A stretch of DNA of 64,000 nucleotides from Mycolicibacterium neworleansense (lineage in GTDB: Bacteria > Actinomycetota > Actinomycetes > Mycobacteriales > Mycobacteriaceae), in NCBI RefSeq assembly GCF_001245615.1, contig NZ_CWKH01000002.1:682001-746000 (forward strand). Direction: 5' to 3'. Numbering within the stretch: the first letter of the stretch is position 1; each line of letters opens with the position of its first letter. Below, in pieces: positions 11,406 through 30,386 of the stretch. The notes beneath the pieces are model-generated. The model worked only from the letters and a program-made list of their open reading frames with translations. It did not search any database and was not told the origin of the DNA. The translations under genes were made by a program, and so were the position numbers.

Positions 11406-11407
11406 AT

Positions 11408-13221: not shown

Positions 13222-13353
13222 TTAGGAGTCCTTCGGCCAGTATCCCAAGCCTCGAGCGCCTGCTCCGGAGAAATGTAGGACGCGAAGAATAACGGCCTTG
13301 GCTTGCAAGCGTTCACCGACGAACGTGTCGGCCTGAACAAGCCCGTCGGCATA
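13222..13353 (-). pseudogene. Out-translated tail of the WXG-type gene
   Basis: Beyond the TGA at 13354-13356 the same frame stays open for 43 codons to TAA at 13222-13224 and begins YADGLVQADTFVGERLQAKA, which reads as a natural continuation of the helical protein upstream. A Trp codon (TGG) to TGA change would explain it. The last ~20 codons look degraded. The interval 13124-13221 holds nothing else that I recognise. Confidence 0.5.
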
Positions 13354-13809: not shown

Positions 13810-14084
13810 ACGGTCACCGTGATCGCATCGTGCCCGTCGGAGTCGGTGCTGTCATAACGGGCACTGCTGACCGAGAGGTCGCCGGCCTGACCCCTCATCA
13901 GCTCCCGCTGACGCTCCCGCATTCGGGTGAGCGCCGCGTTGACCGCGGCGACTCCGGCCGCGCTGGATTGCGAGGATGCTGGGCTGCAGGCCTGTGCGCC
14001 GCTCAGTTCGGTCGCCGCGACGACATCGCTGCTGGTGGCCGCGACCCGCAGGCCGCCAGCATCGACTTCGAGTTCGTTTGCCAT
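13806..14084 (-). CDS. DUF2580-type ESX-associated small protein
   Basis: 92 residues from the ATG at 14084. It reads MANELEVDAGGLRVAATSSD and continues as one or two helices with MRERQRELMRGQAGDLSVSS, the pattern of DUF2580/ESX-1 secretion-associated proteins such as Rv0025. An upstream in-frame start at 14168 adds a tail with no family resemblance. It is the first gene of a two-gene operon; the GTGA overlap with the next gene signals translational coupling. It may chaperone or co-secrete the WXG partner, by analogy only. Divergent from the UvrD-like helicase gene. Confidence 0.7.
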   Translation of the reverse strand: MANELEVDAGGLRVAATSSDVVAATELSGAQACSPASSQSSAAGVAAVNAALTRMRERQRELMRGQAGDLSVSSARYDSTDSDGHDAITVTV

Positions 14085-14237
14085 GCCAATCCCCCAACCG
14101 GCTAACACGCTGATCGCGAGGTTACCGCATCGTGCGTACCCGGTTAGAAGCGATGCCGCCCTACCCACCTGTTAACCGAGTGAAATTCGTTAGATTGGTT
14201 TCTGCTCCATCTCTCCGCTCAGATTGGACAGTCAGCG

Positions 14238-16325
14238 TTGGCGAAGCTCGGTATCGACAAGGACTTTCTGCTGGAATTCGCAAAACTCGATCGCCCGGTT
14301 GCGGCGAAAGTTCGCGACGTCTTCGGCAAATTCGCCGAGGCGACACACACTGGAATCCACCTGGAGCCGATCAAGGCTGCCCGGGACAAGCGGTTGCACT
14401 CAATCCGGATTGACAAGTACTGGCGCGGGGTGGTTCTGAAACTCGACGACGGAGATTTCTACATCCTGCTGACGGTGCGCGGGCATGATGAGGCTTACGA
14501 CTGGGCCGCCAGACGGACAGTGGCGGTGAACCCTGCAACAGGCGTCATCGAACTGCGGGACGTCACAGCCCTGCAAGAGCTCACGGAACGCCAACCCGAG
14601 TCCACTGATTCCGCGCCGCTTTTAGTTCACGTCAAGGACAGCACACTCACCCGGCTCGGAGTCGATGAATCGGTGCTGCAACTTGCCCGCACCCTAACTG
14701 ATACAGCTCAGCTCGAAGCCGCGAAACCATTCGTGCCACAGTCGCAATGGGATGTTCTCTATGGACTTGCCGCCGGCCTTTCCCCAGACGAGGTATGGGC
14801 AGAGGTTGCGGCGCTTACCCCGCAGTCAGTGGATACCACGGATCTGAACGCAGCGGCTGAACGCACTCATAGCCGCATCGTCGTCGTGGACGGGCCGGAG
14901 GAGTTGCTGTCCGTGTTTGATCGCCCGCTCGACTGGTGGCGGGTCTTTCTCCACCCGTCTCAGCAACTGCTTGCCGAGAAATCGTTCTCCGGCCCGGCTC
15001 GGGTAACCGGAGGACCCGGGACAGGCAAGACCGTGGTTGCACTGCACCGTGCGTTCCGACTGGCCGAGCGCAACGACGGGCGCGTACTCTTCACCACCTT
15101 CACGTCAACACTGTCAGCGGCGCTGGATGCCGGGCTGGTCCTGTTGTCGGATTCACCCGGACGTGAATCGAACGTGCGCAACCGGATTGACGTGGTCCAC
15201 GTCGACAAGCTGGCCAACCAGATTGTGCGTGACGAGCATGGGTATCTCACCATCCTGGACGAACAGCAGCAGTCGGAACTATGGCAGGAACTGATCAACC
15301 AGCGCGGCGCCGGGTTCACCGCGACGTTCCTCGGCCTGGAATGGCGCGACGTAGTGCTCGCACAGAACATCGAATCCCTTGAACAGTATCTTGATTCGCA
15401 ACGGTCCGGCCGAGGACTCGCCCTCTCAGGCCGCCAACGTCAGGCGGTGTGGGCACTGATCGAGGACTTCGAATCAGCGCTCCGTGAGCGGAAGCTATGG
15501 ACGCATGAGTCGGTTCTCCGTGAGGCCTATCGGATTTCAGCGCGGAATGGCACCAAGCCATTCCGCCATGTTGTCATCGACGAAGCTCAAGATCTGAGTC
15601 CAATGCAATGGCGACTGCTGCGCGCGATCGTGCCGCAAGGACCAGACGACATGTTCATCGCGGGCGACTCGCACCAGCGGATCTATAACAACTACGTGAG
15701 CCTGCGAACGCTCAACATTCGGATTTCAGGGCGATCCAGCCGATTGAAGATCAACTACCGAACAACCGCCGAAATCCTTGCCTGGAGTCTCGGCATGATG
15801 CGCGGCGAACAGATCGACGACCTCGATGACGGGCTCGACACCCTGGCGGGTTGCCGCTCGGATGTACACGGTGCCCCGCCGACACTGCGTGGCTTCACGA
15901 CGAGCAAGCAAGAGTTGTCCTACATCGGCGACACCGTCCAAGGCTGGCTCGACGGCGGGGTGGCGGCGAACGAGATCGGAATTGCCGCCCGTACCAACTC
16001 CTATGCCGACCGAATCGCCGAGGAGTTGACGGCAGCGAACATCGCTGTTCAGACACTGCCGAACTCTGATCAGGCCGCAGTGGCGGTGGGAACGATGCAC
16101 CGGATGAAGGGCCTGGAATTCCGATGTGTTCTCGCCGCCGGAGTCAGCGATAGAGCTGTTCCGCTGCCTAAGGCAGTCCGGTCCTCTGACCTCGACAAGC
16201 GAGCGTACGCCATGGATCTGCTCCGTGAGCGCAGCCTGCTGTTCGTTGCCTGCACCCGTGCGCGGGAGGACCTGGTGGTGACATGGAACGGTAAGCCGAG
16301 CCCGTTCCTGGATGGCCACTTGTAA
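14238..16325 (+). CDS. RelE-like domain fused to UvrD-type SF1 helicase
   Basis: 695 residues, TTG start. Residues ~1-110 look like a RelE/ParE-fold domain: DFLLEFAKLDRPVAAKVRDVF, then LHSIRIDKYWRGVVLKLDDGDFYILLTVRGHDEAYDWAARR. Residues ~225-695 are a UvrD/Rep helicase with Walker A GGPGTGKT at 258-265, VIDEAQDLSP (motif II), GDSHQRIY, NYRTTAEI, GTMHRMKGLEF and LLFVACTRARED. No nuclease domain is visible. The fusion has been annotated in many bacteria without a defined role, and may couple a ribosome- or RNA-sensing fold to a DNA/RNA motor. Divergent from the DUF2580 gene and convergent, 24 bases away, with darG. Its codon use looks less GC-rich than the flanking core genes. Confidence 0.85.
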   Translation: MAKLGIDKDFLLEFAKLDRPVAAKVRDVFGKFAEATHTGIHLEPIKAARDKRLHSIRIDKYWRGVVLKLDDGDFYILLTVRGHDEAYDWAARRTVAVNPATGVIELRDVTALQELTERQPESTDSAPLLVHVKDSTLTRLGVDESVLQLARTLTDTAQLEAAKPFVPQSQWDVLYGLAAGLSPDEVWAEVAALTPQSVDTTDLNAAAERTHSRIVVVDGPEELLSVFDRPLDWWRVFLHPSQQLLAEKSFSGPARVTGGPGTGKTVVALHRAFRLAERNDGRVLFTTFTSTLSAALDAGLVLLSDSPGRESNVRNRIDVVHVDKLANQIVRDEHGYLTILDEQQQSELWQELINQRGAGFTATFLGLEWRDVVLAQNIESLEQYLDSQRSGRGLALSGRQRQAVWALIEDFESALRERKLWTHESVLREAYRISARNGTKPFRHVVIDEAQDLSPMQWRLLRAIVPQGPDDMFIAGDSHQRIYNNYVSLRTLNIRISGRSSRLKINYRTTAEILAWSLGMMRGEQIDDLDDGLDTLAGCRSDVHGAPPTLRGFTTSKQELSYIGDTVQGWLDGGVAANEIGIAARTNSYADRIAEELTAANIAVQTLPNSDQAAVAVGTMHRMKGLEFRCVLAAGVSDRAVPLPKAVRSSDLDKRAYAMDLLRERSLLFVACTRAREDLVVTWNGKPSPFLDGHL

Positions 16326-16349
16326 CGGCGCGTGCGACCGAGCGCCAAC

Positions 16350-17402
16350 TCAGACCCTCGGTGTCAATTCCCGCTCGCGCAACGCATTCCAGGCGGTCTC
16401 GATATGCTCGGCGGTGAACGTCAGTTTCTTCCTGGGTGTCCACCGGTGTACCTGCTCGACGGCTTCGCGCCAGTCGCCTGCAGCAGCCGCATCGTGTGAG
16501 GTCACCCAGTGCACCGATGCCAGGAGCTCCATGCCATAGCGTGACTCGAATCCGTCGATCATCTGCATCACCCGATCGACCCGTTCGCCGGTCTGCACAT
16601 GGTCGGCGAGAACGCGGTCGGCTTCCTCCTCGGCGCCAGGCAAGGTCTTCATCGCCTCGGCTTCCAGAACGGGCGCACTTGCATCACCGTACCCAGTGAT
16701 GAAATGCCCTTCGACTGTGGACAATACGTGCCGTAGGCTGTCGGCGTACGGACCGTAACGGCCCGGCTCGAACTTGAGATTCAACGGCTCGCCAGCTTCC
16801 TGCAGGAAGTACATCAGCTTTTGCATCTCGACCGGCGTAGCCCCGACCGCCAAGCGCGAGTACTGCGCCAGCAATGACACCAGCGATGCGCGGCCGACAG
16901 TCATCTTTGGCCGCACAGTTGCGTTGGGCATTTCCGATGCGGCCGGTGCGCCGTGTGGCGGATAGATCTTGACGTCGACGCCAGGCAGGTCTGCGAATGC
17001 GTTGACGATGAGCGGCTTCACGTCCGTCCAGTTCAGTCCGCCGTTGCCGCAGCCGAGTGGTGGAATCGCAATGGACGTGATCTCACGTTTCTGCACCACC
17101 GCAACCAGGTCGGCAAGGCCCGCGACAACGTCCGGCAGCTTCGAGGGCGCACGCCAGTGGCCTTTGGTCGGGAAATTGATGATGAACCGCGGCCCGTCCA
17201 GGGCACCTGTTTCCCAGATGTGCATGTGCCCGAGTTGCACGTCCCCGGCTTTGCAGGCCCGCGCATACTCCTTGAACATCGCGGGGTAGGCCTTCTTGAA
17301 CTGCAGCGCGATGCCTTTTCCCATCACGCCGACGGTGTTAACCGTGTTCACCAGGGCATCGGCATCTGCTTGCAGCAGGTTGCCTTCCTCGCTGGTGATC
17401 AT
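16350..17402 (-). CDS. darG: DarG-type macrodomain antitoxin (DNA ADP-ribosylglycohydrolase)
   Basis: 350 residues. Residues 1-160 are a macrodomain: EEGNLLQADADALVNTVNTVGVMGKGIALQFKKAYP, with ADP-ribose-binding loops at GVMGKGIA and IPPLGCGNGGLNW. Residues ~165-350 form the helical C-terminal domain found in DarG (SLLAQYSRLAVGATPVEMQKLMYFLQEAG, KFEPGRYGPYADSLRHVL). DarG removes the ADP-ribose that DarT places on single-stranded DNA and also binds the toxin. It starts 18 bases after the darT stop with a GGAG ribosome site, the standard darT-darG order. It ends convergently with the RelE-UvrD gene. Confidence 0.92.
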   Translation of the reverse strand: MITSEEGNLLQADADALVNTVNTVGVMGKGIALQFKKAYPAMFKEYARACKAGDVQLGHMHIWETGALDGPRFIINFPTKGHWRAPSKLPDVVAGLADLVAVVQKREITSIAIPPLGCGNGGLNWTDVKPLIVNAFADLPGVDVKIYPPHGAPAASEMPNATVRPKMTVGRASLVSLLAQYSRLAVGATPVEMQKLMYFLQEAGEPLNLKFEPGRYGPYADSLRHVLSTVEGHFITGYGDASAPVLEAEAMKTLPGAEEEADRVLADHVQTGERVDRVMQMIDGFESRYGMELLASVHWVTSHDAAAAGDWREAVEQVHRWTPRKKLTFTAEHIETAWNALRERELTPRV

Positions 17403-17420
17403 GGCGGTATCTCCACGTGG

Positions 17421-18059
17421 TTAAAAGTAGAACTCGGGTCTGACATTAATGGGTGGGCTGTCAATGGCCACACTATCGAGGATATGGCGGGCGCGAGCCG
17501 CCCGGGCGGCATCGAATACCGCGATCCCGCTGAGGGCTGACCATGGCACGGCGCGGTGCGCCAAACATTCAGCCATCCGACGCTCTTTGCGGTCCGGGTC
17601 GTCATCGGTGTTGGACCAATAGGTCGCCTTCATCAACGTCCAGTCGACCAACGTGTCGAGGTCGGATACCTGAACGCTGTGTCGAGCCAGTTCGAGCACC
17701 GCGTTGCGGTCAGTGAAGACGAGCGACAACCCGGCCGCCTGAAGCTTCTCAACCGTCGTCATGAGATAGACGACGTCGTGTGAGTCGCCGGTGAACGACG
17801 GAACCCCACCCGCGTGGATCGAGAAGAGCATCGGGCTGCGAGAGGCGAAGTAGAACGGCACGTAATCGGCCACGACTCCTCCCGGAGCTACCTTGATGGC
17901 GCGATGCCTGCGCCTGGCCTTGATCGACGGTTCCCCCACCTCGGTGACGCACACCCCGTCGTCCGCGTCCGAATCGCACCGCAGGCCTTCTGTTGCGATT
18001 CGAGCCAGGTTGTCGAGGTGGGTGAAGTGGGCAACCGTGGTGGGGACCGGGCGGGGCAT
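17421..18059 (-). CDS. darT: DarT toxin, ssDNA ADP-ribosyltransferase (DUF4433)
   Basis: 212 residues. Family signatures run the length of the protein: HFTHLDNLARIATEGL (residues 11-26), RRRHRAIKVAPGGVVADYVPFYFASRSPML (49-78), LVFTDRNAVLELA (113-125), the catalytic-glutamate segment RKERRMAECL with likely catalytic E164, and the closing RPEFYF. DarT uses NAD+ to ADP-ribosylate thymidine in single-stranded DNA and, in phage defence, blocks phage DNA synthesis. All motif residues appear intact, so the toxin should be active. The ATG is 33 bases after the methylase stop on the same strand, placing the toxin at the end of the restriction-like operon. Confidence 0.93.
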   Translation of the reverse strand: MPRPVPTTVAHFTHLDNLARIATEGLRCDSDADDGVCVTEVGEPSIKARRRHRAIKVAPGGVVADYVPFYFASRSPMLFSIHAGGVPSFTGDSHDVVYLMTTVEKLQAAGLSLVFTDRNAVLELARHSVQVSDLDTLVDWTLMKATYWSNTDDDPDRKERRMAECLAHRAVPWSALSGIAVFDAARAARARHILDSVAIDSPPINVRPEFYF

Positions 18060-18092
18060 CGTTCAATCCACCGGTAGCGTGGGCAGCATCGT

Positions 18093-21000
18093 TTACAGCT
18101 CCGCGGTCTCGACGGGATTGTCGATGCTCAACCCGGCCGCCGACAGCCGATCGAACTTCTCCAGGATCATCTCCTTCGATCGATACCGCCCGTACTTGGC
18201 GATTTCGTTGTTCTTCAGCCCACCGGACTCGGTCCTGAAGGAATCCATGATGTACTCGACGTCCTCGCGTGCCACTCCGTAGAGGATGAACATGTACGCG
18301 TCGAGTTCTGCACGGAGCGTTGCGCGCCGATCCTCGTCCCATGCCAAAGGACCGTCATAGCCGAGATCGACCGCCAAATCCGCCATGTCTGTTGCCGTGC
18401 AGGCAAGTTCGGCAACCCGCGGCACGATGAAGCCAGCGTGAGCTTGGGCGACACCCACAGATACCAGCGGTAGCTGCTTGAGGGTCATGACAGCGAGGTG
18501 GATACCGCCAATCTTCTGCCTGCATGCGAAATCCACGGGGAATGACGTTAATGCCGCGACCAGAGACGCCGTCAGTGTCGGTGACATTTCCGAGAAGAGC
18601 AGCGGCTCTGTGTGGCCTGCACCCGCACGAGGGATGAAGCCTGCGATGGCCGTCCGCTCATCGGTTGCGCGGCACACATCCCGCCAGCCCAGCAACCAGC
18701 CCCGGCCCCACTGGACCTCCGCCAGCCTCGCGCTCACGCCCTTGTCGTATGCCGGTAGCCCACGCCGATCGACTTTTCCTGTCAGAACGTCGAATTCGGG
18801 TACCCAGTACCGCGGGAGTGCGACATAGTCGGGGTCGGATTTCTCCGACAACGTCAGCTCGCGGGGCTCCTCACTGTCAGGATCGCTGAAAGTGGCCCAG
18901 CGATGGTCATAGTGGTGCGCCATCTTGCCCTCATACAACGGCAGCATCCGCTTGCCGTCGAGTTCGAAGACGTTGCCGTTCAGCGTCCAGCCCTCATCTT
19001 CGAGCACGGCACGGGTCCGGAACAGGTGGGAGTCGTCGGTCATGTCGTACAGGCGCTTAGTCGTGATCTGCCACGGATTGCCCGTGGGGTCGTCATCGAC
19101 AACCAGGACCGGAACGCGGCGGTAGATGCCCAGGGTGATGTCGGCGTCACGGCGGGTCTGGAAGGTCGGCAGGGTGCCGGTGTTCGGGTTGAGGAGCTGG
19201 ATCTCCTCCGGGGTCAGCTCGAAGATGCGATTGCCGGTGAGTTGTTTCACGTTGCGCAGGCCGAACGCGAGCCGCATCGACGGCTCACGAGCACCGCGAC
19301 CCGACGCGGCGATCATGCAGAAGTTGTAGCTGCGATGGATTTTGAACAGTTCCTCGGCATTCTCGAAGTCGAAGATCGCCGAGATGGCCGCCCGATCAAC
19401 CAGGCTTTTGAACAGGTGTTGCGCGCCGGCGCCATTGGCAATGGTCGTCGGAATCAGCGCACCAAAGTGCCCTTGTGGGTGGGTGATCGATGTCATCTGT
19501 TCGGCGAACAGATGATCGAGCTGGATCGAGTTGACCCCCTTGACCGGTTTGGCCATCTCGGGAAACACGCCAGATCTCTTGGCGAAGTGGAGTGTTCCCT
19601 TCACCTTCCGGCGCGCGGCTCGGTAACGCGCTCCGGCTGCGGAGTTTGCGAGAATCCATTGTTCGATCTTGGCCTTGCGGGCAGTCCCGGTGGTGTTCGC
19701 GATCTCGGGGTTGACGCTGTCGAAGTATTTCTTGTCTTCGAAATCGACCTTGTCCCACGGTGGGTTCGCGCAGATCGCGGTGAAACCGCCGCCCCAGCCG
19801 GCGACCGAATGGAGGTCACCTGATCCTTGCGTGGAGAATATGTGCGGAAACTCCAGGTGCCAGTGGAAGAACCGGTATTCCGCCGTCAGCCGCTGCACCT
19901 CGTCGCGCTGCTCGGGTTTCAGCGCGTCGGGGTCGCCCAGGAGGTCACGGAACTGGCGTTCGGTCACCGCCGTCGGGGCATCCGGCGTCTTCGGCCATAC
20001 GAACGCGGCACACCAGGTGTCGGCGATCAATTTCTGGTGCTGATACTCCCGCGACTCCGAGTAACTTGCCAGCCGCTGGCGCTGCACCGCAACATCGGCA
20101 AGCGACAAGGCGGAAACACCAAGCACCGCCCGCATCTGCGTCGCAAGCGTGGAGTTGCTCAATGCTGGCGAGGTAACTCCGCCGAACAGGTCGTCCTGCA
20201 GCGGCTGGTCACGCTCCAGCTTGTTCCGCCGTTCCAGCGAGGCCGCGGTCTTCTTGTCATCCCCCTCGATCGCCGCGAACGCCTCGTTGGGGATGCCGTC
20301 GGCCAACACGGCCGGGGTGGCGCCGATCAGCGCGTTGCCGAACTTGACCTGGGCGTCGAGGAACGCCAGCGGCCTGCCGGGTTCCACCGCCTCCAGCCAC
20401 AGCGACACCTTCGCCAACTCCGCCGCCAGCGGGTTCACGTCCACCCCGTACACGCACCGATCGACGACATCCCGCAACGCGGCGCGTACCTGCTTCGGCG
20501 GGGGCTCGGATTCACCGCTTCGGTGCGCGGCAAGACATTTCGCGATCCGCCGGGCCGCCGCCACCAGGAAGTGGCCCGAGCCGCAGGCCGGGTCGCACAC
20601 CGTGATCGCGAGCAGTGCCTCCTCGGGGTCGGTTGCCGCGGCCGCGCGGTCGAGCACCGGCTCCAGTGCCGAATCAAGTAGACATTCCACCAAAGATGTT
20701 GGCGTGTAGTACGAGCCGGTCCCCTTACGCTCGTTGCCCGCGGCTTCCAGCAGAGAGTAGCTGCGCTCCACCGGATTCCATACCGGATGGAACTCCAACA
20801 GCGACTCATAGATGCTGCCGAGTTCTTCCGCGTCGAGGTTTCGATAGTCGGCCTTCCACAATCGGTCCGACTTCCCCTTGACCACCGACATCGACCGCAC
20901 CGCACTCAGGAAATCTGCATTGCGGATCCTGCAGTCCAGCGCGAAGTCCAGTGGGCCGTTCTCGAAGAGGCCGCCGAGCGCGGGCAGGCCGAGTTCCGGC

Positions 21001-22082
21001 ATGCCGTCCGGGCTGGCCAGGCCGCGCCAAACCAACACCTGTGCCTGCCAGCGATCGGTGTGCCGGTCCCCGAGCCGCCGACGTGCGACGTCGCGGAGTC
21101 GATCCGTCGAGAAGAACCGCGCATAGCGTTCCCGTGCGCCGGGCTCCGCGTCGGCAGTGTGCAGTACGCCGCGGTCCTCGGCGACGAAGGTGAACAGCAA
21201 CCGATACACCACCCGCAGCAGGGCATGGTGGAAGTCGCTCACCGCCAGTTCGCCCGAGCCGATCCGCTCGCGCAGATGCTGGTTGTCCGGGTGGGTGAGG
21301 AACCCGTTGCCCAACGTTTCCAACGCCGCCACCACGCCGTCCCGCAACTGGTCCAGCATTCGGGTGCCGGTCTGCGCGGCGGCCTCACGCCAGCGTTCCA
21401 TCCAGCATGAGGCCTGTCCTATCTCGGCATCCAGCGAAACCAGCCTCGACTGGTGGCACATCCGGAACAGCAGCAGGAAATCGGAGAACAACTCGCCGCT
21501 GAAGATCGCGTCCAGGTCGAACTCGATGTACGCCGAGCCGGTCAGCGAAGTCGAATCGCGCAGCAGCCGCAGGGTCCGACCGTTGGAGAGGATCGACCAC
21601 AGGTGCGTGTCGGCGCGGTTCAGATACTCCTGCACCATCGACTGCGGCGCAGACTTCGCCGCACCCGCCGTCCCGGCCGACCGCTTGTCCAGGTCCACCC
21701 CGGCGCCGAGCAGGTGGATCGCAATGGCGTCGCCCCACAGGTGCGATATCGGGTAACGCTTGTCGGGGTCGGCATCGACCGCGAGCCCGCCGACGGGTGC
21801 GGGTGGAACACGGCCGTAGTCAAGCTGATTCAGCAGCGGCAGCAGGAACCGGTCGCGGGTGAGTCCGGTTGCGGCATCGTCACCGAGCTCGTCCTGGAAC
21901 CGCGTCCACACCCCCCGCATGTAGGCCCACACCCGGTTCGCGGCGTCGCGTACCGACTCCCCGCCGGCCAGATGGTAGTCGGCCGGCGCCGAGCCATCCA
22001 TGTCACCGGTGGCGATACGGGTCAGCGCTCCGGCCGGCATCAGGCCGCCCTGCACCCGGACCCCAACGAACGCATCGGTCAC
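18093..22082 (-). CDS. Eco57I-type N6-adenine DNA methyltransferase, DrmMI-like
   Basis: 1,329 residues. The methyltransferase core has motif X GSYYTP at 456-461, motif I DPACGSGHF at 497-505, a second acidic strand end CVYGVDVNPLAAELAKVSLW near 543-562, and the catalytic NPPW at 773-776, the signature of N6-adenine methylases. The ~450-residue N-terminal domain and the long C-terminal part suit target recognition and partner binding. No PD-(D/E)xK restriction motif was seen at the N terminus. It overlaps the upstream helicase gene by 4 bases (ATGA) with CCTCCCGGAGG just ahead. Class 1 DISARM DrmMI is the closest functional comparison; BREX PglX is an alternative of similar size. Confidence 0.85.
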   Translation of the reverse strand: MTDAFVGVRVQGGLMPAGALTRIATGDMDGSAPADYHLAGGESVRDAANRVWAYMRGVWTRFQDELGDDAATGLTRDRFLLPLLNQLDYGRVPPAPVGGLAVDADPDKRYPISHLWGDAIAIHLLGAGVDLDKRSAGTAGAAKSAPQSMVQEYLNRADTHLWSILSNGRTLRLLRDSTSLTGSAYIEFDLDAIFSGELFSDFLLLFRMCHQSRLVSLDAEIGQASCWMERWREAAAQTGTRMLDQLRDGVVAALETLGNGFLTHPDNQHLRERIGSGELAVSDFHHALLRVVYRLLFTFVAEDRGVLHTADAEPGARERYARFFSTDRLRDVARRRLGDRHTDRWQAQVLVWRGLASPDGMPELGLPALGGLFENGPLDFALDCRIRNADFLSAVRSMSVVKGKSDRLWKADYRNLDAEELGSIYESLLEFHPVWNPVERSYSLLEAAGNERKGTGSYYTPTSLVECLLDSALEPVLDRAAAATDPEEALLAITVCDPACGSGHFLVAAARRIAKCLAAHRSGESEPPPKQVRAALRDVVDRCVYGVDVNPLAAELAKVSLWLEAVEPGRPLAFLDAQVKFGNALIGATPAVLADGIPNEAFAAIEGDDKKTAASLERRNKLERDQPLQDDLFGGVTSPALSNSTLATQMRAVLGVSALSLADVAVQRQRLASYSESREYQHQKLIADTWCAAFVWPKTPDAPTAVTERQFRDLLGDPDALKPEQRDEVQRLTAEYRFFHWHLEFPHIFSTQGSGDLHSVAGWGGGFTAICANPPWDKVDFEDKKYFDSVNPEIANTTGTARKAKIEQWILANSAAGARYRAARRKVKGTLHFAKRSGVFPEMAKPVKGVNSIQLDHLFAEQMTSITHPQGHFGALIPTTIANGAGAQHLFKSLVDRAAISAIFDFENAEELFKIHRSYNFCMIAASGRGAREPSMRLAFGLRNVKQLTGNRIFELTPEEIQLLNPNTGTLPTFQTRRDADITLGIYRRVPVLVVDDDPTGNPWQITTKRLYDMTDDSHLFRTRAVLEDEGWTLNGNVFELDGKRMLPLYEGKMAHHYDHRWATFSDPDSEEPRELTLSEKSDPDYVALPRYWVPEFDVLTGKVDRRGLPAYDKGVSARLAEVQWGRGWLLGWRDVCRATDERTAIAGFIPRAGAGHTEPLLFSEMSPTLTASLVAALTSFPVDFACRQKIGGIHLAVMTLKQLPLVSVGVAQAHAGFIVPRVAELACTATDMADLAVDLGYDGPLAWDEDRRATLRAELDAYMFILYGVAREDVEYIMDSFRTESGGLKNNEIAKYGRYRSKEMILEKFDRLSAAGLSIDNPVETAEL

Positions 22083-24874
22083 GCCACTACCTCCGGGAGG
22101 TAGATGTACACGCCGAGGATGTCGGCATTGGGCTCGGCCGTCACCTTCAGGCCTCGGACCAACTCCTGGCCGGCCTGGCGCACCCGGCGGTGCGATTCGT
22201 ACGTGTCGCTCGCCAACCGCTCACCCACCTTCACCAGGTGAGCCGACAGCTGATCGAGCTCGGACAGTGTTCTGGCGGCCGCCGAACGCGCCTGCTGCTC
22301 AGGGATGTTCTGCGACGGCGCGGCGGCGAACAACTCCTCCGGGTCGTCCAACCATTGCGGATTGGCCGGTGATCCCACGTACGCCAGCGGCAGCAAGTCT
22401 TCAGCCACCAACCGGCGCAGACCCGTTCTGGACGGCAGCTCCATGTGAAAGCGGTAGCGGACCAGCAGTAGTGCGGTGCGTTTGGACACGTCGCGGGTAC
22501 GGATGACGGCGCAGCGGCGTGCCGGCCGGTGCTTGGCGGGCAGCATCGGGTCCAGCGCCGATTGCAGCACATAGTCCGCAACGGCCGCCACCGTCTCGTC
22601 CGTGCGCAGCAGCACGGCGTCTCCCCTGCCTGCCGGCAGGTCGTCGGCGAAGAACAGCGGATCGGACTTGCCGAGCGGCAACGCATTTCGCAAGCCGAGC
22701 GGAAGGCTTCCGGTGGTCGCCTCGAATCCGTCAGCTCGGTCGACGATCGTCGACCCGAGTTCGGCCAGCGCCGTCCGGGTCAGATCCTTGACCTCGGCAT
22801 GGCTGCCCAGCCCGGCGCGGGCATCGTCGAGTTCCGTTTGAACCTCGGTCTCTTTGATCGCCGCCTGCGCGTACTTCGTCATCGACTGCTTCTCAGTCTC
22901 ACGCTGGGCGGCGCTGTCCCATTCGGCGTACAGCGAGTCGCGCTGCTGCGACACCTCCAGGTCGAGGGAGAGCTGTTCGGCCGCCGTGCCGCGCAGCAGC
23001 AGGCCCTCCATCAGCGCCTCCACCACGGCATCGCTGTTGTCCGGCACCGGCACCGAGACACCTGTGGCGTTGCGGATGCGCTCATGCTTGCGCAGCAGCA
23101 CCTCCAGCACGATGCCGTCAATGTGATTGTCCTTGCCGTACAGCGTGACTGCCCGCACCACGTCGTGCTGCTGGCCGAACCGGTCGACCCGGCCTTCACG
23201 TTGCTCGTGGCGGGTCGGGTTCCAGGCCAGGTCGTAATGCACCACCGCCTGGAAGTCGTTCTGCAGGTTGACGCCCTCGGCCAGGCAGTCAGTGGCGACC
23301 AGGACGTGATGCCCCTCGATCGCCGTCAGCTCGTCAATCCGAGCGATGCGTTCCTCGGGTGGGAGCGTTCCGGTCACGGCCTGAACCATCACCTTTCGTC
23401 CAAGTTTCGCGGACAGAACTTCGGCGACATACTCGGCGGTGTCGATGAAGCGACAGAAGACGATCGGGTTGTAGTCGTCGGCAAGGAGTTTCTTGACCAC
23501 CTTGACCAGTTCGGCGGCCTTGGTGTCCTTGTCTTCCAGCATTTGGGCGGCTTTGCGGAACACGGTGAGCCTGCGAGCCAGCGGCGATCCGGAGTCGGCA
23601 CCGGGGGTCGAGTCCGCCGATTCCAGCGTGTCCAAGTCCGGCAAGTCCAGAACGGCAGCCCGGCCGATCCGATCCGCATCAGCAAGGTTCTGTGCCTCCA
23701 GTGCGGCGGCCCGGGTGCGCAGAGTCTGCACCGCAGCACGCGGTGAGGACGCCAACGCCCGCAGGAGTGCCAACGCTGACCACCAGTTGACCCGGCGCGC
23801 CACGCCGCCGTCGCCGGTGCGAACCGTTTCGCGGGCATAGTCGAGAACCTGGTCGAAGAGTGCTCGATATTCGGGGCTCAGTGCGTATGCAATCTCGGCT
23901 GCCTTGCGTTCCTTGGGAAACGGAGTCTCCTGGTCGAGGTACTTCCTGATGTCGCCGCGCCGGCGTTGCACGAAATGCCGAGCCAGCTTCTCCCGGCCTT
24001 TGGCGGTGTCCAACTCAGCAAGGTTGAAGCCCTTGTCCAGCAGCTTGATCAGATTCTCAAAGGTCTCGTCCTTGCCGCTGTGCGGGGTTGCGCTCACCAG
24101 GATCAAATGCCGGCGCGGATCGTCGGCGAGGTCCCGCACCAGGTCGTACCTCAGGGTGCGGCCGCTACGCGACAGCCCGGACGCGGCAACACAGGTGTGC
24201 ACCTCATCCACGATGACCAAATCGGGGCAGGTGCGGAGAAACTCGTGACGGTGCCGCGGCGATTTGATGAAGTCGGTCGATACCACCACGTGCCGGTAGC
24301 GGTCGAACAGCGACTCGGTGCCGATCAGTCCGCGTTCCAAGCGGGTCACGGTGGATGACAACACCAACTCGGCTTCGATACCGAACTTGTGCCGCAGCTC
24401 GGTCTGCCACTGTTCGGCCAACGCCGGGCTGCACAGCACCGCGAGGCCTTGTGCGGCACCGGTTTCCAGTAGTTCGGCAGCGATCAGCGCCGCCTCGACG
24501 GTCTTGCCGATGCCGACGTCGTCGGAAATGAGCAGCCGCACCACGTCCTGACGCAACGCCATCATGAGGGGCACCAACTGGTAGGCGCGCGGTTCGACGT
24601 TGATCGACGCCAAACAACGGAACGGCCCGGTGGTGGAACGGAATCCGACCTTGACCGCGTCTCTGAGCAAGGTGGCACTGTGGTGGTCACCCAGATCGTC
24701 CGGCGACGGTGCGGGGAACGTCGCGGATTGAACGCCCTCGGAGAGGAACACCCCGGCGATATCGTCGTCGCGCCCACCAAGCGGGCGCAGCACCAGGAAG
24801 TCCTCGGAGCTGTCCGGCTGCACCACCCAGTCCCGGCCCCGTGCAGTGACCAGGGCTCCCGGCGCAAAACTCAC
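22079..24874 (-). CDS. SNF2/HepA-like helicase, DrmD-like
   Basis: 931 residues from a GTG at 24874 that overlaps the upstream stop as GTGA, with AAGGAG at normal spacing; a longer frame exists but lacks a ribosome site. SF2 motifs are SDDVGIGKT (Walker A, 118-125), IVDEVHTC (223-226), LVSATPHSGKDE, then a C-terminal lobe with VFCRFIDTAEYV, LVATDCLAEGVNLQ and HEQREGRVDRFGQ. This is the RapA/HepA subgroup used as DrmD in class 1 DISARM. The segment ~590-690 is coiled-coil-rich. Between a DUF1998 helicase and an adenine methylase, a DNA-translocation role in phage restriction is the best inference. Confidence 0.86.
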   Translation of the reverse strand: MSFAPGALVTARGRDWVVQPDSSEDFLVLRPLGGRDDDIAGVFLSEGVQSATFPAPSPDDLGDHHSATLLRDAVKVGFRSTTGPFRCLASINVEPRAYQLVPLMMALRQDVVRLLISDDVGIGKTVEAALIAAELLETGAAQGLAVLCSPALAEQWQTELRHKFGIEAELVLSSTVTRLERGLIGTESLFDRYRHVVVSTDFIKSPRHRHEFLRTCPDLVIVDEVHTCVAASGLSRSGRTLRYDLVRDLADDPRRHLILVSATPHSGKDETFENLIKLLDKGFNLAELDTAKGREKLARHFVQRRRGDIRKYLDQETPFPKERKAAEIAYALSPEYRALFDQVLDYARETVRTGDGGVARRVNWWSALALLRALASSPRAAVQTLRTRAAALEAQNLADADRIGRAAVLDLPDLDTLESADSTPGADSGSPLARRLTVFRKAAQMLEDKDTKAAELVKVVKKLLADDYNPIVFCRFIDTAEYVAEVLSAKLGRKVMVQAVTGTLPPEERIARIDELTAIEGHHVLVATDCLAEGVNLQNDFQAVVHYDLAWNPTRHEQREGRVDRFGQQHDVVRAVTLYGKDNHIDGIVLEVLLRKHERIRNATGVSVPVPDNSDAVVEALMEGLLLRGTAAEQLSLDLEVSQQRDSLYAEWDSAAQRETEKQSMTKYAQAAIKETEVQTELDDARAGLGSHAEVKDLTRTALAELGSTIVDRADGFEATTGSLPLGLRNALPLGKSDPLFFADDLPAGRGDAVLLRTDETVAAVADYVLQSALDPMLPAKHRPARRCAVIRTRDVSKRTALLLVRYRFHMELPSRTGLRRLVAEDLLPLAYVGSPANPQWLDDPEELFAAAPSQNIPEQQARSAAARTLSELDQLSAHLVKVGERLASDTYESHRRVRQAGQELVRGLKVTAEPNADILGVYIYLPEVVA

Positions 24875-27800
24875 TGTGCAGTCTCCTTGAGCTTGCCGAA
24901 CACCCATTCATGACCACGCACAATCGCATCCCAGTCATCGTCGTAGCGGAATCGGACTATTTCCCAACCAGCATCCAGCAGACGTTCCTCGGCGGCCGCA
25001 TCTCGTTCGACCACCGACTCAGCGTCGTGCACCGGGCCATCAAGGAAAACCGCAACGGCCAGTCCGTTGTCCAGGCGGTAGGCGAAATCCGGGCGGACCT
25101 TGAGCGCGTCGATCTTGCGTTGGGCTTCGGTCGGCAGCCGAAGCCCTCGTGTCTTGGCGTACTCCAGAAAGTCCCGCTCAAGGATCGAGGTGGACTGCCG
25201 CTCCAGGTCTTCTGCCTTTGCCCGCGGTTTCTGAGTGGTGGCCGCGCCTGCCAGTCGCATAAGAATCTCGCGAACCAGATGACGGTCAATCTGCTCGTGG
25301 TGCGGCTGATTTCCATAGGACAGCAGGCAGTCGTAGCAGGCCTGCACACAGTCAACATTCGTGTCGGTGCCATCCGGATCGAAGTGGCATATGTCCAATG
25401 CCTTGCGCGCCGCCCGCGCCAGCGCGTCGGGTTCGGACACGATTCGGCGCAGGATCCCCGCTCCGCCCTCGGCGGACTCGGTGAACAATGTCCGTCCATG
25501 CTCTTGAGGGTCGGGCAACAGCTCGGACGACAGCTCTGAATCCTCAAGTTGGAACACCGCCTCGATGCCGCGCTCCAACGCGTACTGCAGCGTCACTGCC
25601 ATCTCGTCGCTGATCGGGCCCGCCACCCGAAACAACATGATGTTGCGGGTGTCCTCCACGTACGGGATGACCCTGTCCTTCAGCTTCACCTTCCCGACGT
25701 CCTCGTAGTCGCTGTCATCGTCATCGAGATCACCGGCAGCCTTTTCCGATAGCCAGGTTCCGCGAGCCAGGTCAAGCCAGAATCCCTGCTCACCTGTCTT
25801 CTTGCGGCGGCGACGACCCAGGTTCGTGCGGCGGATCAACGCCGTATCGCCATAGGCCAGTTCTGCGATCAGACCATTCGCATCAGCGACCGTGGCGTCA
25901 TCCCGATTGTGATTGGGGGTGAACCGGAACGAGGTGGCGATCTCGAATCCTGCACGCCGGCGTTCCTCCTCGTCCGAGGAAATACGTTCGCGACGGCGGG
26001 TGAAGACGGTCTCCATCCGCATGAGCCCCGGTTTGGCCAACGGGAGAACGCTGCCGCAGTACTCACATAGTTCCAACCCCGAGCCGCGGTCGTGGTGATA
26101 CCCACACGCCTCGCAGGTACGCGCCGAGCTGGTGACCAGATTCCCCTCGCTCGAAGAATCCATCGGCAGCTGGATACGGACCACTTCGTAGCGCGAACCC
26201 TCATGGTAAATAAGGGCATTGGGGCCGAATTCGTTGATTGCAAGGAACCGAGGTCGCTGAATGTAATCGCCGTCTTTCGGACCGGAGCGTCCGGGGATAA
26301 AAGCTGCCAGCGGCAACCGCGGAAAGCTGTAACCAGGCAGGAACCCTTCGGCCGCGAAGTAGCGGTAGGTGTAGAAGTCGGAGAAGAGCTGGCCGGTGTC
26401 CTCATTGACGAGCAGCCGCAGCTGGTTCTCCGCCTGGGCGCGGCGGAGTTTCGCACCCTCGATCTCCTTGGTATTGGCGCTGTGGTTACCGACGATCGCG
26501 TGGAACTTCGCCCGGTCGGCCTGCGCTGCCCGGTAGAGGGCGCGCCACCGATCGCACGCCTCGTCGAACTTTCGGTATGCCGATCGCATCGTGCGCTCGA
26601 CCCAGTCGTCGGTCCACCAGGTGGTCTCACGCAGACCGGGCTTCAGCGGTTCGATCACCTGCTCCGCCCGTGCGGTCGCCCGCGCCACCGCACCATCCTT
26701 TGTCAGGAACTCCTTAATATCGTGCTTGATCGGAAATCCCGGCGCATCCAGATCGAGCACACCCCGCATGCTCGAATTCAGATGCTCGTCCGTCTCCGCC
26801 AGCCAGATCGCGTGCAGGTGCGAGCGCAGCAACGCCTCGTTCGCCAGGTCGAGCCGCGGTGGCGCGACCGAACCGGCCACCATGTCTTCGGAACGCCGGA
26901 AGTAATAGTGGTCATGGGAGTTGCCGCTGGCGCAGTAGGTCACCACGAGGGCGGGCTGCCCGCTTCGGCCCGCTCGGCCGCTGCGCTGAGCGTAATTCGC
27001 CGGCGTCGGTGGCACATTGCGCAACCCGACGGCGTTCAGCCCCTTGATGTCCACGCCCAATTCCATGGTCGGCGAGCAGAACAGCAACGGAAGCTCGGCC
27101 TCCTTGAACTCGCCTTCGCGCCGTTCCCGGTCCACGGTCGAAACCTGGGCGGTGTGCTCCTTCGAGCGCAACCCCCGCAGTGTCACCGCGGTGTCGCGGT
27201 ACAGATCGTGGAAGAACCGGTTGACCCGTCCACCGTCGCCGCCGACCCGTTTGCGGGTGGCATCCACAACACCGGCCGTCCCGTCACCGGCTTTCCAGAT
27301 CAATGCCGCCGCACGCACCCGATAGCCAAGTCCCGGGCGCACCTCATCCATCGCATCGACGAGGAGGCCCGCCTTCTCCAGCCTTGAAAGCAGCTGCCCG
27401 AGAACCAGTCCGGTGTCTGCTTCACTCAACCGGAGCCCGTCGTGGTCACGCAGCTTCTCCCGCACATAACGCCCAATCGCCGAGCGCGGGGTTATCCGGG
27501 GCGCCAAGGTACGGGTGCGCGGGTCGGAAGTGTCGGTGATCCCGATCTTGCTGTTGTGTCCCAGCTTGTCCGAGGAGGTCAGCTGCCACAGCTCGACGAG
27601 ATGCTGAGTGGATTGGTTGAACACCCGCTCGAAGCCGTACTCGGAGAGGCACTCGACGTCGATCGCAAGCTCGCGTCGCATCTGCTCGAGCAAGTTGAAA
27701 CACACGTCGTGGCGAGTCACGCTATCTGCGTCCCTAATCGCGGGATGTGTTTCAGCCCACAACTTCTCGCTGGCCGCGATTTCCTGCAGAGAATCGTACT

Positions 27801-29961
27801 CAATGTGCAGCAGGCCGGTCTGTTCAAGGTTCGGCATCGTGACGCGCCAGCCGCGTTGCAAGTCCGCGTACAGACGAAACTCCACAACCGCGCGCAGAGC
27901 CGACTCGGCCTTACGTCGCATGCCGAATTCCGCTTCGGCACTCGACGCATACTCGGCGAAGTCCAGTCCGAGCGCCTGGGTAACCCTGCGGGCGACGTCC
28001 TCGTGAGTGAGGCCGTCAGATTCGTCGGCAACCGCTCGATACAGGGCGCCCCGCAACTGCGTCACCTGAACGAAATCGTTGAAATGTCCGGCTTGCAGGC
28101 TCGCATCCTGGCGGTTGTCGACAAAGGTCAGCAGTTTCCGCGCATCGTTCGGCAGCGCATCTTCAGGAAGGCCTTTGAGGCTGCGCACGATCGATGAACT
28201 GATCATCGTCATCGCCGACGACCGGCCCTCCGCATCCAGCGGCGCCAACCGGGCGAAATCCGTCGTACCGGCCCGCTGGTATGCGACCGCACAACGCAGG
28301 CAGAAACGGAACGGCCCGGAAATGAACGCCGCTTCGGTGCCACCGGAATTCGTTTCAGTGCCGTCAGCCAAGACCCGCACCCGCCGGGGCTGGTACTTGA
28401 CCATATTGGGTTTGAGCTGCCCCTGCTCCAGCCAGGATTCTGGGTAGCGTTCCTCAGCTTCAGGGTCCTGTGGCCATCCGAAATCAGAAGAGACATAGAG
28501 ATAGCCGTCGCCGTCACTATCGGCGACCTCCCGATCGTTTCGCGACCGGTAGACGGTTCGGTCCCCGCGGTTGATCCGGGTGACCACGATGTATTCCTGA
28601 CCGCATTCACGGCAGAAACTCACCGGCAACAGCAAGTGGTCAGGTTTACCTGGGACTTTCACCTGATAGGACGTCGAGATATGGCGTTGCCCTTCAGGTT
28701 CCAATGACACCAGGACGCCCTCACCTTTCGAGAGGAACTGGTGGAGCCGGAATCCGAACAGTGGTCGTTTTGTGGCTGGGTCGATCGCGTTCGAGCCGAC
28801 CAGCAGCACGTTCCGGATTGCCGCGGAAGCGTCAGCCTCGCTCACCTGAACACGTTTCGCCAGTTCCCGGGCCACCTCCGAGACCCTTTGCGGCCGCTGG
28901 CGTACGAGTTGGCCTTCTTGAACCTTCAAGCCAAACGCGTCCTCAATCCAACCGGCGAAAGAGTGGTTCGCCAGGTGCTCGTACGACGATTCGGACAGGT
29001 TCACGTCCGTCAGCTCACCTGCGGCTGTTGCACGGGTGAGGGTTTCTCCGATGACGCGGTCTGGCGTCACCTCATCCCCGAATATCTGCGTGGCAACCTG
29101 GGCCACGGCCTCCTTCTGCTCGGCGATCGAATCGCCGGAGGCCATCGTCGCCGACGTACCGATGCACTGCAGATCGCCCGATCCGCATGCGTCGCGCACC
29201 CGGCGAACCAGCATGCCAACGTCAGCGCCCTGCCGGCCACGATAGGTATGCAACTCGTCAAGCACCAGGAATTTCAGTGTGTGCGCCGCACCGATCAACG
29301 CTTTGCGTTCGTTGGGACGAGTGAGCAGAAGTTCCAGCATCACGTAGTTGGTCAGCAGAATGTCCGGTGGGTTGGCGAGGGTCCTCTCACGGTCATCGTC
29401 GTCGTCCTGACCGGTATAGCGGGCGAAAGTGACGGGCTCATTGCCATCGCCAAAGCCATGCACCAGGAACTTGCGGAGCTCATCGCGTTGACTGTTGGCG
29501 AGGGCATTCATCGGATAGACGATGATGGCCTTGACACCCTTCGGTCGGTTGCTGCCGAGCCGAAGCACGTGATCCACGATCGGCACGATGTACGCCAGGG
29601 ACTTTCCCGATCCCGTGCCGGTGGTCAAGACATAAGACTTGCCTGTGCGCGCGGTTTCAACGGCATCGCGCTGGTGCTTGTGCAAGGTGATCGGGCCCGA
29701 GCCCCGGTCCTCGACCGTCTGCTTCTCGCGGAAGATGTACGAGCATCCCTTGTCGAGAAGCCCCTCGGTGACCAGTTCGTCGATGGTGCCACCCGAGGCG
29801 AACATGGGGTTGAGCGAGACCCACGGCTCGGGCCATTGACGGCCGTCGGCGAGGCCCTGCTCGACGACTTCGCGAATCCGCTCGTCGCGGATGTCGACCC
29901 CGCCGGTCGTAAATGCGCGGTAGTCATCGATCAGCTTGCGATGAACCTCGAAGATATCCAC
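24871..29961 (-). CDS. Giant DEAD/DEAH helicase with DUF1998 and C-terminal nuclease-like domain
   Basis: About 1,696 residues from the GTG at 29961, which has GGGGG 6 bases upstream; a TTG 15 bases earlier is the alternative. In order (numbers from that TTG): Walker A TGTGSGKS (119-126), LDELH (239-243), GTSATM (273-278), two CxxC pairs (455, 559), motif V region MELGVDIKGLNAV and QRSGRAGR (997-1004), a zinc ribbon with CEAC and CEYC (1288-1307), DUF1998 with EGGAGILRR and four cysteines (1530, 1543, 1547, 1550), and a ~100-residue tail with PDF (1629) and VAVFLDGPVH that looks like a Vsr/DUF559 PD-(D/E)xK fold. DISARM DrmA+DrmB fused, or Druantia DruE, are the nearest comparisons. First gene of the operon. 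Confidence 0.86.
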   Translation of the reverse strand: MDIFEVHRKLIDDYRAFTTGGVDIRDERIREVVEQGLADGRQWPEPWVSLNPMFASGGTIDELVTEGLLDKGCSYIFREKQTVEDRGSGPITLHKHQRDAVETARTGKSYVLTTGTGSGKSLAYIVPIVDHVLRLGSNRPKGVKAIIVYPMNALANSQRDELRKFLVHGFGDGNEPVTFARYTGQDDDDDRERTLANPPDILLTNYVMLELLLTRPNERKALIGAAHTLKFLVLDELHTYRGRQGADVGMLVRRVRDACGSGDLQCIGTSATMASGDSIAEQKEAVAQVATQIFGDEVTPDRVIGETLTRATAAGELTDVNLSESSYEHLANHSFAGWIEDAFGLKVQEGQLVRQRPQRVSEVARELAKRVQVSEADASAAIRNVLLVGSNAIDPATKRPLFGFRLHQFLSKGEGVLVSLEPEGQRHISTSYQVKVPGKPDHLLLPVSFCRECGQEYIVVTRINRGDRTVYRSRNDREVADSDGDGYLYVSSDFGWPQDPEAEERYPESWLEQGQLKPNMVKYQPRRVRVLADGTETNSGGTEAAFISGPFRFCLRCAVAYQRAGTTDFARLAPLDAEGRSSAMTMISSSIVRSLKGLPEDALPNDARKLLTFVDNRQDASLQAGHFNDFVQVTQLRGALYRAVADESDGLTHEDVARRVTQALGLDFAEYASSAEAEFGMRRKAESALRAVVEFRLYADLQRGWRVTMPNLEQTGLLHIEYDSLQEIAASEKLWAETHPAIRDADSVTRHDVCFNLLEQMRRELAIDVECLSEYGFERVFNQSTQHLVELWQLTSSDKLGHNSKIGITDTSDPRTRTLAPRITPRSAIGRYVREKLRDHDGLRLSEADTGLVLGQLLSRLEKAGLLVDAMDEVRPGLGYRVRAAALIWKAGDGTAGVVDATRKRVGGDGGRVNRFFHDLYRDTAVTLRGLRSKEHTAQVSTVDRERREGEFKEAELPLLFCSPTMELGVDIKGLNAVGLRNVPPTPANYAQRSGRAGRSGQPALVVTYCASGNSHDHYYFRRSEDMVAGSVAPPRLDLANEALLRSHLHAIWLAETDEHLNSSMRGVLDLDAPGFPIKHDIKEFLTKDGAVARATARAEQVIEPLKPGLRETTWWTDDWVERTMRSAYRKFDEACDRWRALYRAAQADRAKFHAIVGNHSANTKEIEGAKLRRAQAENQLRLLVNEDTGQLFSDFYTYRYFAAEGFLPGYSFPRLPLAAFIPGRSGPKDGDYIQRPRFLAINEFGPNALIYHEGSRYEVVRIQLPMDSSSEGNLVTSSARTCEACGYHHDRGSGLELCEYCGSVLPLAKPGLMRMETVFTRRRERISSDEEERRRAGFEIATSFRFTPNHNRDDATVADANGLIAELAYGDTALIRRTNLGRRRRKKTGEQGFWLDLARGTWLSEKAAGDLDDDDSDYEDVGKVKLKDRVIPYVEDTRNIMLFRVAGPISDEMAVTLQYALERGIEAVFQLEDSELSSELLPDPQEHGRTLFTESAEGGAGILRRIVSEPDALARAARKALDICHFDPDGTDTNVDCVQACYDCLLSYGNQPHHEQIDRHLVREILMRLAGAATTQKPRAKAEDLERQSTSILERDFLEYAKTRGLRLPTEAQRKIDALKVRPDFAYRLDNGLAVAVFLDGPVHDAESVVERDAAAEERLLDAGWEIVRFRYDDDWDAIVRGHEWVFGKLKETAQ

Positions 29962-30140
29962 TCTGTGCCCCCTCAAGGCAGCATCATTCCAAATCAGCGC
30001 GATCCCAGGGCACAGTCCGAGGAGCTAACTGATAGCCAGCCGATCAGAATACGACTTGCGGCAGACAACTGCCCCGCAAAATCGCGGGACTGCTTTCGGC
30101 CCTGGCTGCACTCCAGACGCATTCCGGCTACCGTGACGGC

Positions 30141-30371
30141 ATGGTTGCGATCACCATTCGCGACGTACCGGACGAGGTGCGAGACACGCTTACCGCCCGC
30201 GCCGCGCGCAACGGCAGGTCGCTCCAGGAGTATCTGCTCGCAATGCTCATCGACGCAGCGACGAAACCAACCGTCGACGAGGTGCTTCAGCGAGCACGTG
30301 GACGAGTTGAAGCAACGGGCACCCGGCTGGACATCCCCAGCATCCTTACTACTAAGAATGCCGATGAGTGA
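30141..30371 (+). CDS. Orphan FitA/VapB-like ribbon-helix-helix antitoxin
   Basis: 76 residues. The opening VAITIRDVPDEVRDTLTARAARNGRSLQEYLLAMLIDAA is a textbook FitA/VapB ribbon-helix-helix, and the tail RGRVEATGTRLDIPSILTTKNADE suits a toxin-binding segment. Such genes are normally followed with overlap by a vapC PIN toxin. Here the stop is 15 bases from the end of the convergent glycosyltransferase gene, and no PIN sequence follows in any frame. The toxin has been lost, or this is a solitary regulator. It marks the right end of the island. Confidence 0.82.
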   Translation: MVAITIRDVPDEVRDTLTARAARNGRSLQEYLLAMLIDAATKPTVDEVLQRARGRVEATGTRLDIPSILTTKNADE

Positions 30372-30386
30372 TGACTGCGGCGCCGA

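Follow-up and report, generated by a model that had tools for sequence, protein, structure and literature searches.

A stretch of 64,000 nucleotides from Mycolicibacterium neworleansense (contig NZ_CWKH01000002.1, positions 682,001 to 746,000; hereafter the window, whose own coordinates are used throughout) was found to contain a defence locus whose core trio, armC-armA-armB, is, as judged by gene order, domains and a Vsr-like nuclease, an ARMADA Type I system, that is, a system already named and not a new type of DISARM. The core being already known, what is new at this locus is an ARMADA I system that bears the toxin-antitoxin pair DarTG together with a homologue of ArmD. DarTG is not core to ARMADA, but is a rare occupant of a recurring 3' position. 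Taken as a whole, the locus is quite probably a mycobacterial ARMADA Type I system with an ArmD-type helicase, in which DarTG fills the 3' position of the operon and the parts work as two layers.

Core genes of the locus

ARMADA Type I is defined by the gene order YprA, BrxHII, PglX (Bell et al., preprint, September 2025; PMC12458937), and a YprA-like, a BrxHII-like and a PglX-like gene follow one another in this order on the minus strand of the window. The first, armC (24871-29976), encodes a superfamily 2 helicase of the YprA/DUF1998 (MZB) kind of ~1,700 residues, as indicated by model matches, with a start that by eye is perhaps GTG 29961. The second, armA (22079-24874, or 22079-24907 from the ATG), encodes a BrxHII/RapA-like SNF2 helicase of 931 residues from GTG 24874 or 942 residues from ATG 24907. 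The third, armB (18093-22082), encodes a PglX/Eco57I-type adenine methylase, as indicated by Pfam matches (Eco57I and N6_Mtase), a match to DrmMI (197 bits) and alignment with E. coli ArmB. All three proteins, as well as the ArmD homologue described below, align with the ARMADA II proteins of E. coli ATCC 8739. Among 158 distinct loci collected in the survey described below, the order ArmC-ArmA-ArmB on one strand was found in 151; the remaining seven hold a partial trio only, six of them at contig ends.

The second mark of Type I, a YprA helicase that ends in a Vsr-type PD-(D/E)xK domain, is also found in the window (24874-25338, minus strand). By alignment, predicted model and structure comparison taken together, this domain has a Vsr-like nuclease fold, while a profile search against solved structures (best E 0.013, to HsdR) and Foldseek alone (best E 0.08) each gave no significant match. 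The domain contains the residues LER, RPDF and FLDGPVHD, which we take to be its nuclease motifs.

The sequence-only reading of this DNA had seen a DISARM-related helicase and methylase operon joined to DarTG, and had proposed a new, unnamed DISARM type with built-in abortive infection. The relation to DISARM and the presence of DarTG stand, but the operon matches ARMADA Type I (PMC12458937), and we regard a new DISARM subtype as very improbable. In its favour are the homology of the armA-like and armB-like proteins to DrmD and DrmMI and the two further genes that ARMADA and DISARM Class 1 have in common (PMC12458937). However, the armA-like protein scored 287 bits against the NCBIfam model of DISARM DrmD, below the curated cut-off of 610 (258 bits against the DrmD defence model), and the armC-like helicase matched DruE3 with 340 bits, far above the 59 bits for DrmA, among the defence-model profiles. 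DISARM Class 1 has separate DrmB/DUF1998 and DrmC/PLD genes together with DrmD, DrmMI and DrmA; the unit in the window has no separate DrmB and no DrmC/PLD gene, as had already been observed, with the DUF1998/MZB part fused to the helicase, the nuclease forming its C-terminal domain, and no PLD domain among the Pfam matches of the six locus proteins. The fusion of a Vsr-like nuclease to the helicase C-terminus and the Type I gene order likewise count against a DISARM subtype.

The helicase scored 127 bits against E. coli ArmC and 107 bits against E. coli DruE, and the other five proteins of the locus had no Druantia model match among the matches listed, whereas Druantia combines DruE with DruH (type III) or with further druantia genes. 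The armA-like protein scored 992 bits over its full length against a PADLOC model labelled DpdE (PDLC02853). A Dpd identity was rejected, the NCBIfam DpdE model giving 176 bits against a cut-off of 500, and the DpdE label of PDLC02853 may be a mix-up in that model. Automatic Dpd or DISARM calls in actinobacteria may really be ARMADA I. ArmA homologues were also seen on 38 plasmid records, including a 177-kb plasmid of Deinococcus radiodurans (NC_000958.1, 162281-165094; 44.5% identity).

DarTG and the genes that follow ArmB

Behind armB on the minus strand lies darT (17421-18059), encoding a predicted DNA ADP-ribosyltransferase toxin (PF14487, 188 bits; NF048013, 218 bits against a curated NCBIfam cut-off of 150; 221 bits against the defence model; alignments), followed by darG (16350-17402), encoding an antitoxin with a macrodomain and a C-terminal domain (NF048014, 454 bits against a cut-off of 250; 442 bits against the defence model), whose two halves are matched by the solved structures 5m3i and 7yk3_B. 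Glu164, presumably the catalytic residue of DarT, is present in the window protein, and the same residue was found in all 11 aligned DarT sequences. A DarT with the conserved glutamate thus adjoins a two-domain DarG. The spacing is 33 nucleotides between armB and darT and 18 nucleotides between darT and darG.

The sequence-only reading had described a single minus-strand unit of DUF1998 helicase, SNF2 helicase, adenine methylase, DarT and DarG, with 4-base overlaps at its first two junctions and these same two gaps, and all five genes were found as it placed them, with profile scores well beyond chance level. The overlaps at the armC-armA and armA-armB junctions hold if the SNF2 gene starts at GTG 24874, which is also the start of the 931-residue database copy; a start at the first ATG (24907) would lengthen the overlap to 37 bases. 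A scan of the unit found no promoter (2.2 expected in shuffles) and seven terminator-like sites (10.6 expected); the former used a sigma-70 consensus, which describes another promoter type, and both results are uninformative.

On the opposite strand, convergent with darG and 24 nucleotides from it, lies an armD-like gene (14238-16325, plus strand) encoding a UvrD/GajB-type helicase with a putative RelE/ParE-like N-terminal fold, as judged by homology to ArmD, a Pfam UvrD match and a predicted model. It had been described as an adjacent RelE-UvrD fusion; the UvrD part was borne out, and the gene is more than adjacent, being a homologue of ArmD of E. coli ATCC 8739 (38% identity over 705 columns, 427 bits). 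The alignment runs from residue 2, so that the homology is full-length and includes the N-terminal region. The PADLOC models C3a187 and GajB scored 108 and 91 bits. By profile the RelE part is weak: PF24732 ParE_like scored 13.6 bits (E = 0.07), its cut-off being 24.4. The predicted model (mean pLDDT 74) has the N-terminal order helix-helix-strand-strand-strand-helix, and no RelE entry was listed for this part in structure searches, whose lists were filled by matches to the helicase part. ArmD is the fourth gene of E. coli ARMADA II, and the RelE-GajB fusion is given for Type II (PMC12458937). At a threshold of at least 300 bits, ArmD-like genes were found in the flanks of 42 of 153 loci, the window locus included; a looser count of 46 contained, for example, the GajB-like gene of locus L086, hence the recount. 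Such homologues near Type I systems blur the published divide between Types I and II.

For this survey, genomes were searched for the SNF2 protein in three overlapping draws, with matches in 36 of 396 from the genus, 33 of 397 from the order and 30 of 394 from the class, and a named-genome collection was added (best 80 of 574 confirmed), so that the set leans to close relatives. The 172 loci analysed were reduced to 158 by removal of identical ArmA DNA, and the ArmB frame was readable in 153 of these. McrB or McrC was matched within 6 kb after ArmB in 65 of the 153 loci (both in 50) and within 1.3 kb in 47 (both in 46), assignments made from Pfam for one representative each and from profiles made in this analysis. 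An ArmD-like gene without McrBC lay within 1.3 kb after ArmB in 11 loci, other content was found in 57, and 18 had less than 2.5 kb downstream, one of them (L087) with DarT. The first sizeable downstream gene was scanned in 10 loci, comprising nine of the 57 with other content and L149, which had been classed by a McrB-like piece 5 kb away. The genes in this position were AbiU/AIPR (L149 and L106), GajA of Gabija (L086), GmrSD (L170), a SIR2/Dsr1-like gene (L047), a HEC-03-like ATPase (L063) and a trypsin-like protease (L060), while those of L111, L061 and L065 had no match. L149, the next branch to the window locus and L033 on the ArmA tree, has the layout of the window locus with AbiU replacing DarTG, followed by a convergent ArmD-like gene. 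Since different defence modules follow ArmB in different lineages, the 3' end of the ARMADA I operon looks like an interchangeable defence slot.

In several loci (L069, L074 and L087) ArmC has what looks like an eroded Vsr-like motif; the motif is intact in the window locus and L033. By a crude pattern test of the motif, on which we base no claim, erosion was flagged in 31 of the 47 loci with adjacent McrBC and in none of the 11 with an adjacent ArmD-like gene; the test also flags L149, although its DGPVHD is intact.

DarT was found in three of the 153 loci, namely the window locus, L033 and L087, and L074 has a frame matching the C-terminal part of DarG only. In all three, darT stands directly after ArmB on the same strand, 33 nucleotides behind it in the window locus and 3 (L033) and 4 (L087) nucleotides behind the last ArmB specificity cassette in the others. 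On the ArmA tree (58 rows, at least 55% identity), the window locus and L033 are sisters, and L087 and L074 stand elsewhere, among McrBC-bearing loci. A grouping of the four loci with DarT or DarG was rejected (p-AU 4e-48), and with it a single origin of the joining; the tree has three changes of state. A single lineage of DarT linked to ARMADA is neither demonstrated nor excluded by the DarT tree (p 0.43), and the DarG tree behaves likewise (support 70/84). The sequence-only reading would have taken the joining as accidental if most homologous loci lacked darTG. Most do lack it, yet "accidental" is too strong a word, because the joining recurs in separate ArmA branches and always directly after ArmB.

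Across the genus, DarT was found in 15 and ArmA in 36 of the 396 genomes, both in four (G000, G204, G233 and G274), and darTG follows armB in two of these (G000 and G204). A search of the family found close DarT homologues in three of 371 genomes, the window's own included (the other two, G677 and G705, are not among the ArmA-bearing genomes listed). Further afield, DarT homologues were compared with ArmA and ArmB homologues by exact longest-contig size (contigs of at least 8 kb, window included). A match was found for 11 of 17 homologues with at least 57% identity, including those on contigs named Gordonia asplenii and Rhodococcus sp. Eu-32, and for none of 29 below 57%; such a match is no measured distance, and the contrast is biased towards close kin, the ArmA and ArmB lists being the 120 closest. 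A search of the literature by the titles and abstract starts of the papers listed, with supplements outside its scope, found no report of DarTG with ARMADA, and the word DarT is absent from the main texts of PMC12458937 (as is "ADP-ribos-"), PMC11090510 and PMC12839542.

ArmB repeats and the inserted block

The window ArmB has one C-terminal specificity-type domain, starting at LPLYEGKM, and no simple repeat precedes it. A second specificity domain follows in nine of the 147 loci with a locatable specificity domain, and all but one of them carry a simple repeat, (GA)15, (CA)12, C10 or a G tract of 8 to 15, within ~60 nucleotides before the first domain, which makes eight repeat loci. The same position holds a repeat in none of the 138 single-domain loci (Fisher p 2e-12); as background, such runs occur in 19 of 8682 equal-size windows across all ArmB genes, repeat loci included. 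ArmB and the first specificity domain share a reading frame in three of the eight repeat loci and are out of frame in the other five. The repeat-bearing ArmB regions are L033 (13400-14913), L074 (15300-16926) and L087 (11500-13048), together with those of L076, L077, L078, L079 and L146. The ninth locus, L081, has a second ArmB-like region ~4 kb after its first specificity domain, in an open reading frame of 1,320 residues and with no repeat. The 120 homologues closest to the L033 ArmB include 16 of 1,000-1,100 residues, 14 of them with a Gly or Pro run in the last 40 residues, and 15 of 88 full-length homologues with a located junction have a Gly/Pro run or dipeptide repeat there, runs that were read from protein letters and not from DNA.

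This pattern suggests that the repeat-bearing ArmB of the eight relatives is a phase-variable methylase, although no within-strain length change was seen. L033, L087 and L074 all bear a repeat and the window locus does not; DarT or a DarG C-terminus is found in three of the eight repeat loci against one of the 145 others (p 0.0004), an association that was noticed after the fact among related loci and is a lead only. The Pgl system of Streptomyces coelicolor, whose pglX is phase-variable through a G tract that changes in length (PMC4365076), may be likened to the ArmB repeats of these eight relatives; the differences are that spare specificity cassettes go unmentioned in the excerpted text of that report and that the window ArmB itself has no repeat. 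The word "phase" does not occur in the ARMADA main text (PMC12458937). We tentatively consider, as an idea unlikely to hold in full, that ARMADA I is a modular, partly phase-variable platform, in which the repeat would toggle between a fusion of ArmB to its cassette and a truncation, changing what is marked as self, while DarTG would serve in the slot as a back-stop when the first layer is off or the mark is changing; the window locus would have kept DarTG with a fixed ArmB. The truncated form would leave the tandem specificity cassettes as separate proteins. If confirmed, a repeat-bearing ArmB would add phase-variable self-recognition to ARMADA.

The defence block is an insertion, its flanking genes being close neighbours in relatives. 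A search of 20 relatives found 12 of the same genus with matches to both flanking genes (11174-13123 and 30387-32168), on one contig in 11 and on two contigs in G008. In all 11 single-contig relatives the matches lie no more than 5 kb apart, against 17.3 kb in the window, and in six (G001, G002, G005, G010, G011 and G012) they overlap or are at most ~115 nucleotides apart. The guanine-plus-cytosine content is 0.61-0.64 at 14-20 kb and 24-30 kb, against 0.68 just outside both sides, though values down to 0.63 occur elsewhere in the window as well. No tRNA was found in the 64-kb window, no direct repeat of at least 11 bases is common to 13100-14400 and 29900-30500, and no integrase was found among six genes scanned. 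On the first two of these results, insertion at a tRNA gene or with target duplication was rejected.

At the right edge, the sequence-only reading had drawn its interval to include 30141-30371, but this is a solitary FitA-like ribbon-helix-helix antitoxin of 76 residues (PF22513, E 6.4e-13) on the plus strand, divergent from armC and not part of the minus-strand unit; it is probably outside the system. No PIN toxin gene was seen beside it, and its candidacy as regulator of the unit was rejected, the gene lying upstream of armC in the window locus alone among 154 loci with upstream DNA. At the left edge, two small open reading frames (13354-14085, minus strand) have weak Pfam matches, below cut-off, to PPE and EspC-type proteins of type VII secretion, and in L033 an open reading frame with a WXG100-like match separates darG from the ArmD-like gene.

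Proposed working and relation to known systems

For the two-layered ARMADA Type I locus proposed here, the working may be as follows. ArmB would methylate host DNA at a specific sequence, by analogy with PglX methylases and from ArmB mutants of E. coli ARMADA II, and ArmA, ArmC and ArmD would detect phage DNA that lacks the modification and unwind it. ArmC, through its Vsr-like domain (a fold assigned by model), would then cut this DNA, giving a direct, non-abortive first layer. The type tested for anti-phage activity is Type II, of which the E. coli system depends on each of its four proteins and defends cells without causing their death (PMC12458937); the built-in abortive infection of the sequence-only reading would be that reading's own deduction, and ARMADA II itself is reported as non-abortive. 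As a second layer, DarT is predicted to ADP-ribosylate single-stranded DNA, and DarG to reverse the mark and hold DarT, as the marking and its reversal are reported for other DarTG pairs (PMC12255303). DarG would keep DarT silent until infection shuts the host down or the first layer fails, and freed DarT would mark replicating DNA and stop the phage at the cost of the cell. A single unit would couple the two layers in dose and inheritance. More speculatively, the ARMADA helicases might expose the single-stranded DNA that DarT modifies, by analogy with Druantia III and Zorya II, whose use of common DNA intermediates has been reported (PMC13192584). McrBC, AbiU, Gabija, GmrSD, SIR2 proteins or DarTG would take one another's place in the 3' slot.

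Several points weigh against this proposal. It is from their spacing alone that the five minus-strand genes would appear to share one transcript. DarT was not seen in 150 of the 153 loci (17 of them with less than 2.5 kb downstream), indicating that ARMADA I does not need it, and in 13 of the 15 DarT-bearing genomes of the genus DarT does not adjoin ArmB. The DarTG pairs of the window locus and L033 are common by descent, leaving maybe only two independent gains, and DarTG has its own antitoxin and could act alone. Finally, the RelE-GajB fusion was published for Type II, and near Type I loci its place and orientation vary.

Some of these points are those on which a different explanation would draw, in which DarTG is an independent module that came to lie next to ARMADA within a defence island, with incidental spacing and without interaction between the systems. 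We regard this as possible though doubtful. The rarity of DarT at ARMADA loci and, in the genus, beside ArmB (two of 15) would fit it, as would the occurrence of DarTG inside other defence operons, such as a type I restriction-modification system of E. coli (PMC12255303); set against these are the recurrence of DarTG in separate ARMADA branches, always behind ArmB and in its orientation, with gaps of 3, 4 and 33 nucleotides, and the matching contig sizes of 11 of the 17 close DarT kin. An improbable alternative is that DarTG stabilises the island, loss of the block killing cells in which DarT outlasts DarG. In its favour, the block is an insertion, and toxin-antitoxin pairs are known to stabilise mobile elements; on the other side, the tRNA, edge repeat and integrase sought in the window, at its edges and among the six scanned genes were all lacking, and the partner at many ARMADA I loci, McrBC for example, is no toxin.

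ARMADA I emerges from the survey as a platform whose 3' module is exchangeable, and the window locus as a compact natural one in which direct defence of the restriction type would be encoded together with a layer that ADP-ribosylates DNA. Such a locus makes testable a question that applies to many defence islands, namely whether two layers in one operon add or one prepares the substrate of the other.

Among known systems, DISARM Class 1 shares with the window locus its DrmD-like and DrmMI-like proteins, whereas the latter lacks DrmB and DrmC and has a helicase of the Druantia/ARMADA kind. In the RRDM island of E. coli E2348/69, DarTG2 lies between hsdS and hsdR of a type I restriction-modification system (PMC12255303), so that there, as here, DarTG is embedded in a methylation-based defence system; unlike the window locus, that island has HsdM/S/R with an RptR repressor and an M48 protease (PMC12255303). 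The link of McrBC to a DISARM-like or ARMADA cassette was previously in print (PMC11090510, PMC12458937), and there too a defence module adjoins the same core genes, with McrBC in place of the DarTG found here. All four proteins of ARMADA Type II (E. coli ATCC 8739 and NCTC 12900) are homologous to those of the window locus, ArmD being the most alike. However, Type II has the strict order ArmA, ArmB, ArmC and then the RelE-GajB fusion ArmD in one direction, while the window locus has the order C-A-B and a convergent ArmD homologue after darG. ARMADA Type I (PMC12458937) has the same gene order as the window locus, DUF1998 fused to the helicase, a Vsr-like C-terminal nuclease and Actinomycetota hosts, and the window locus differs from it by DarTG in the unit and by the convergent ArmD homologue.

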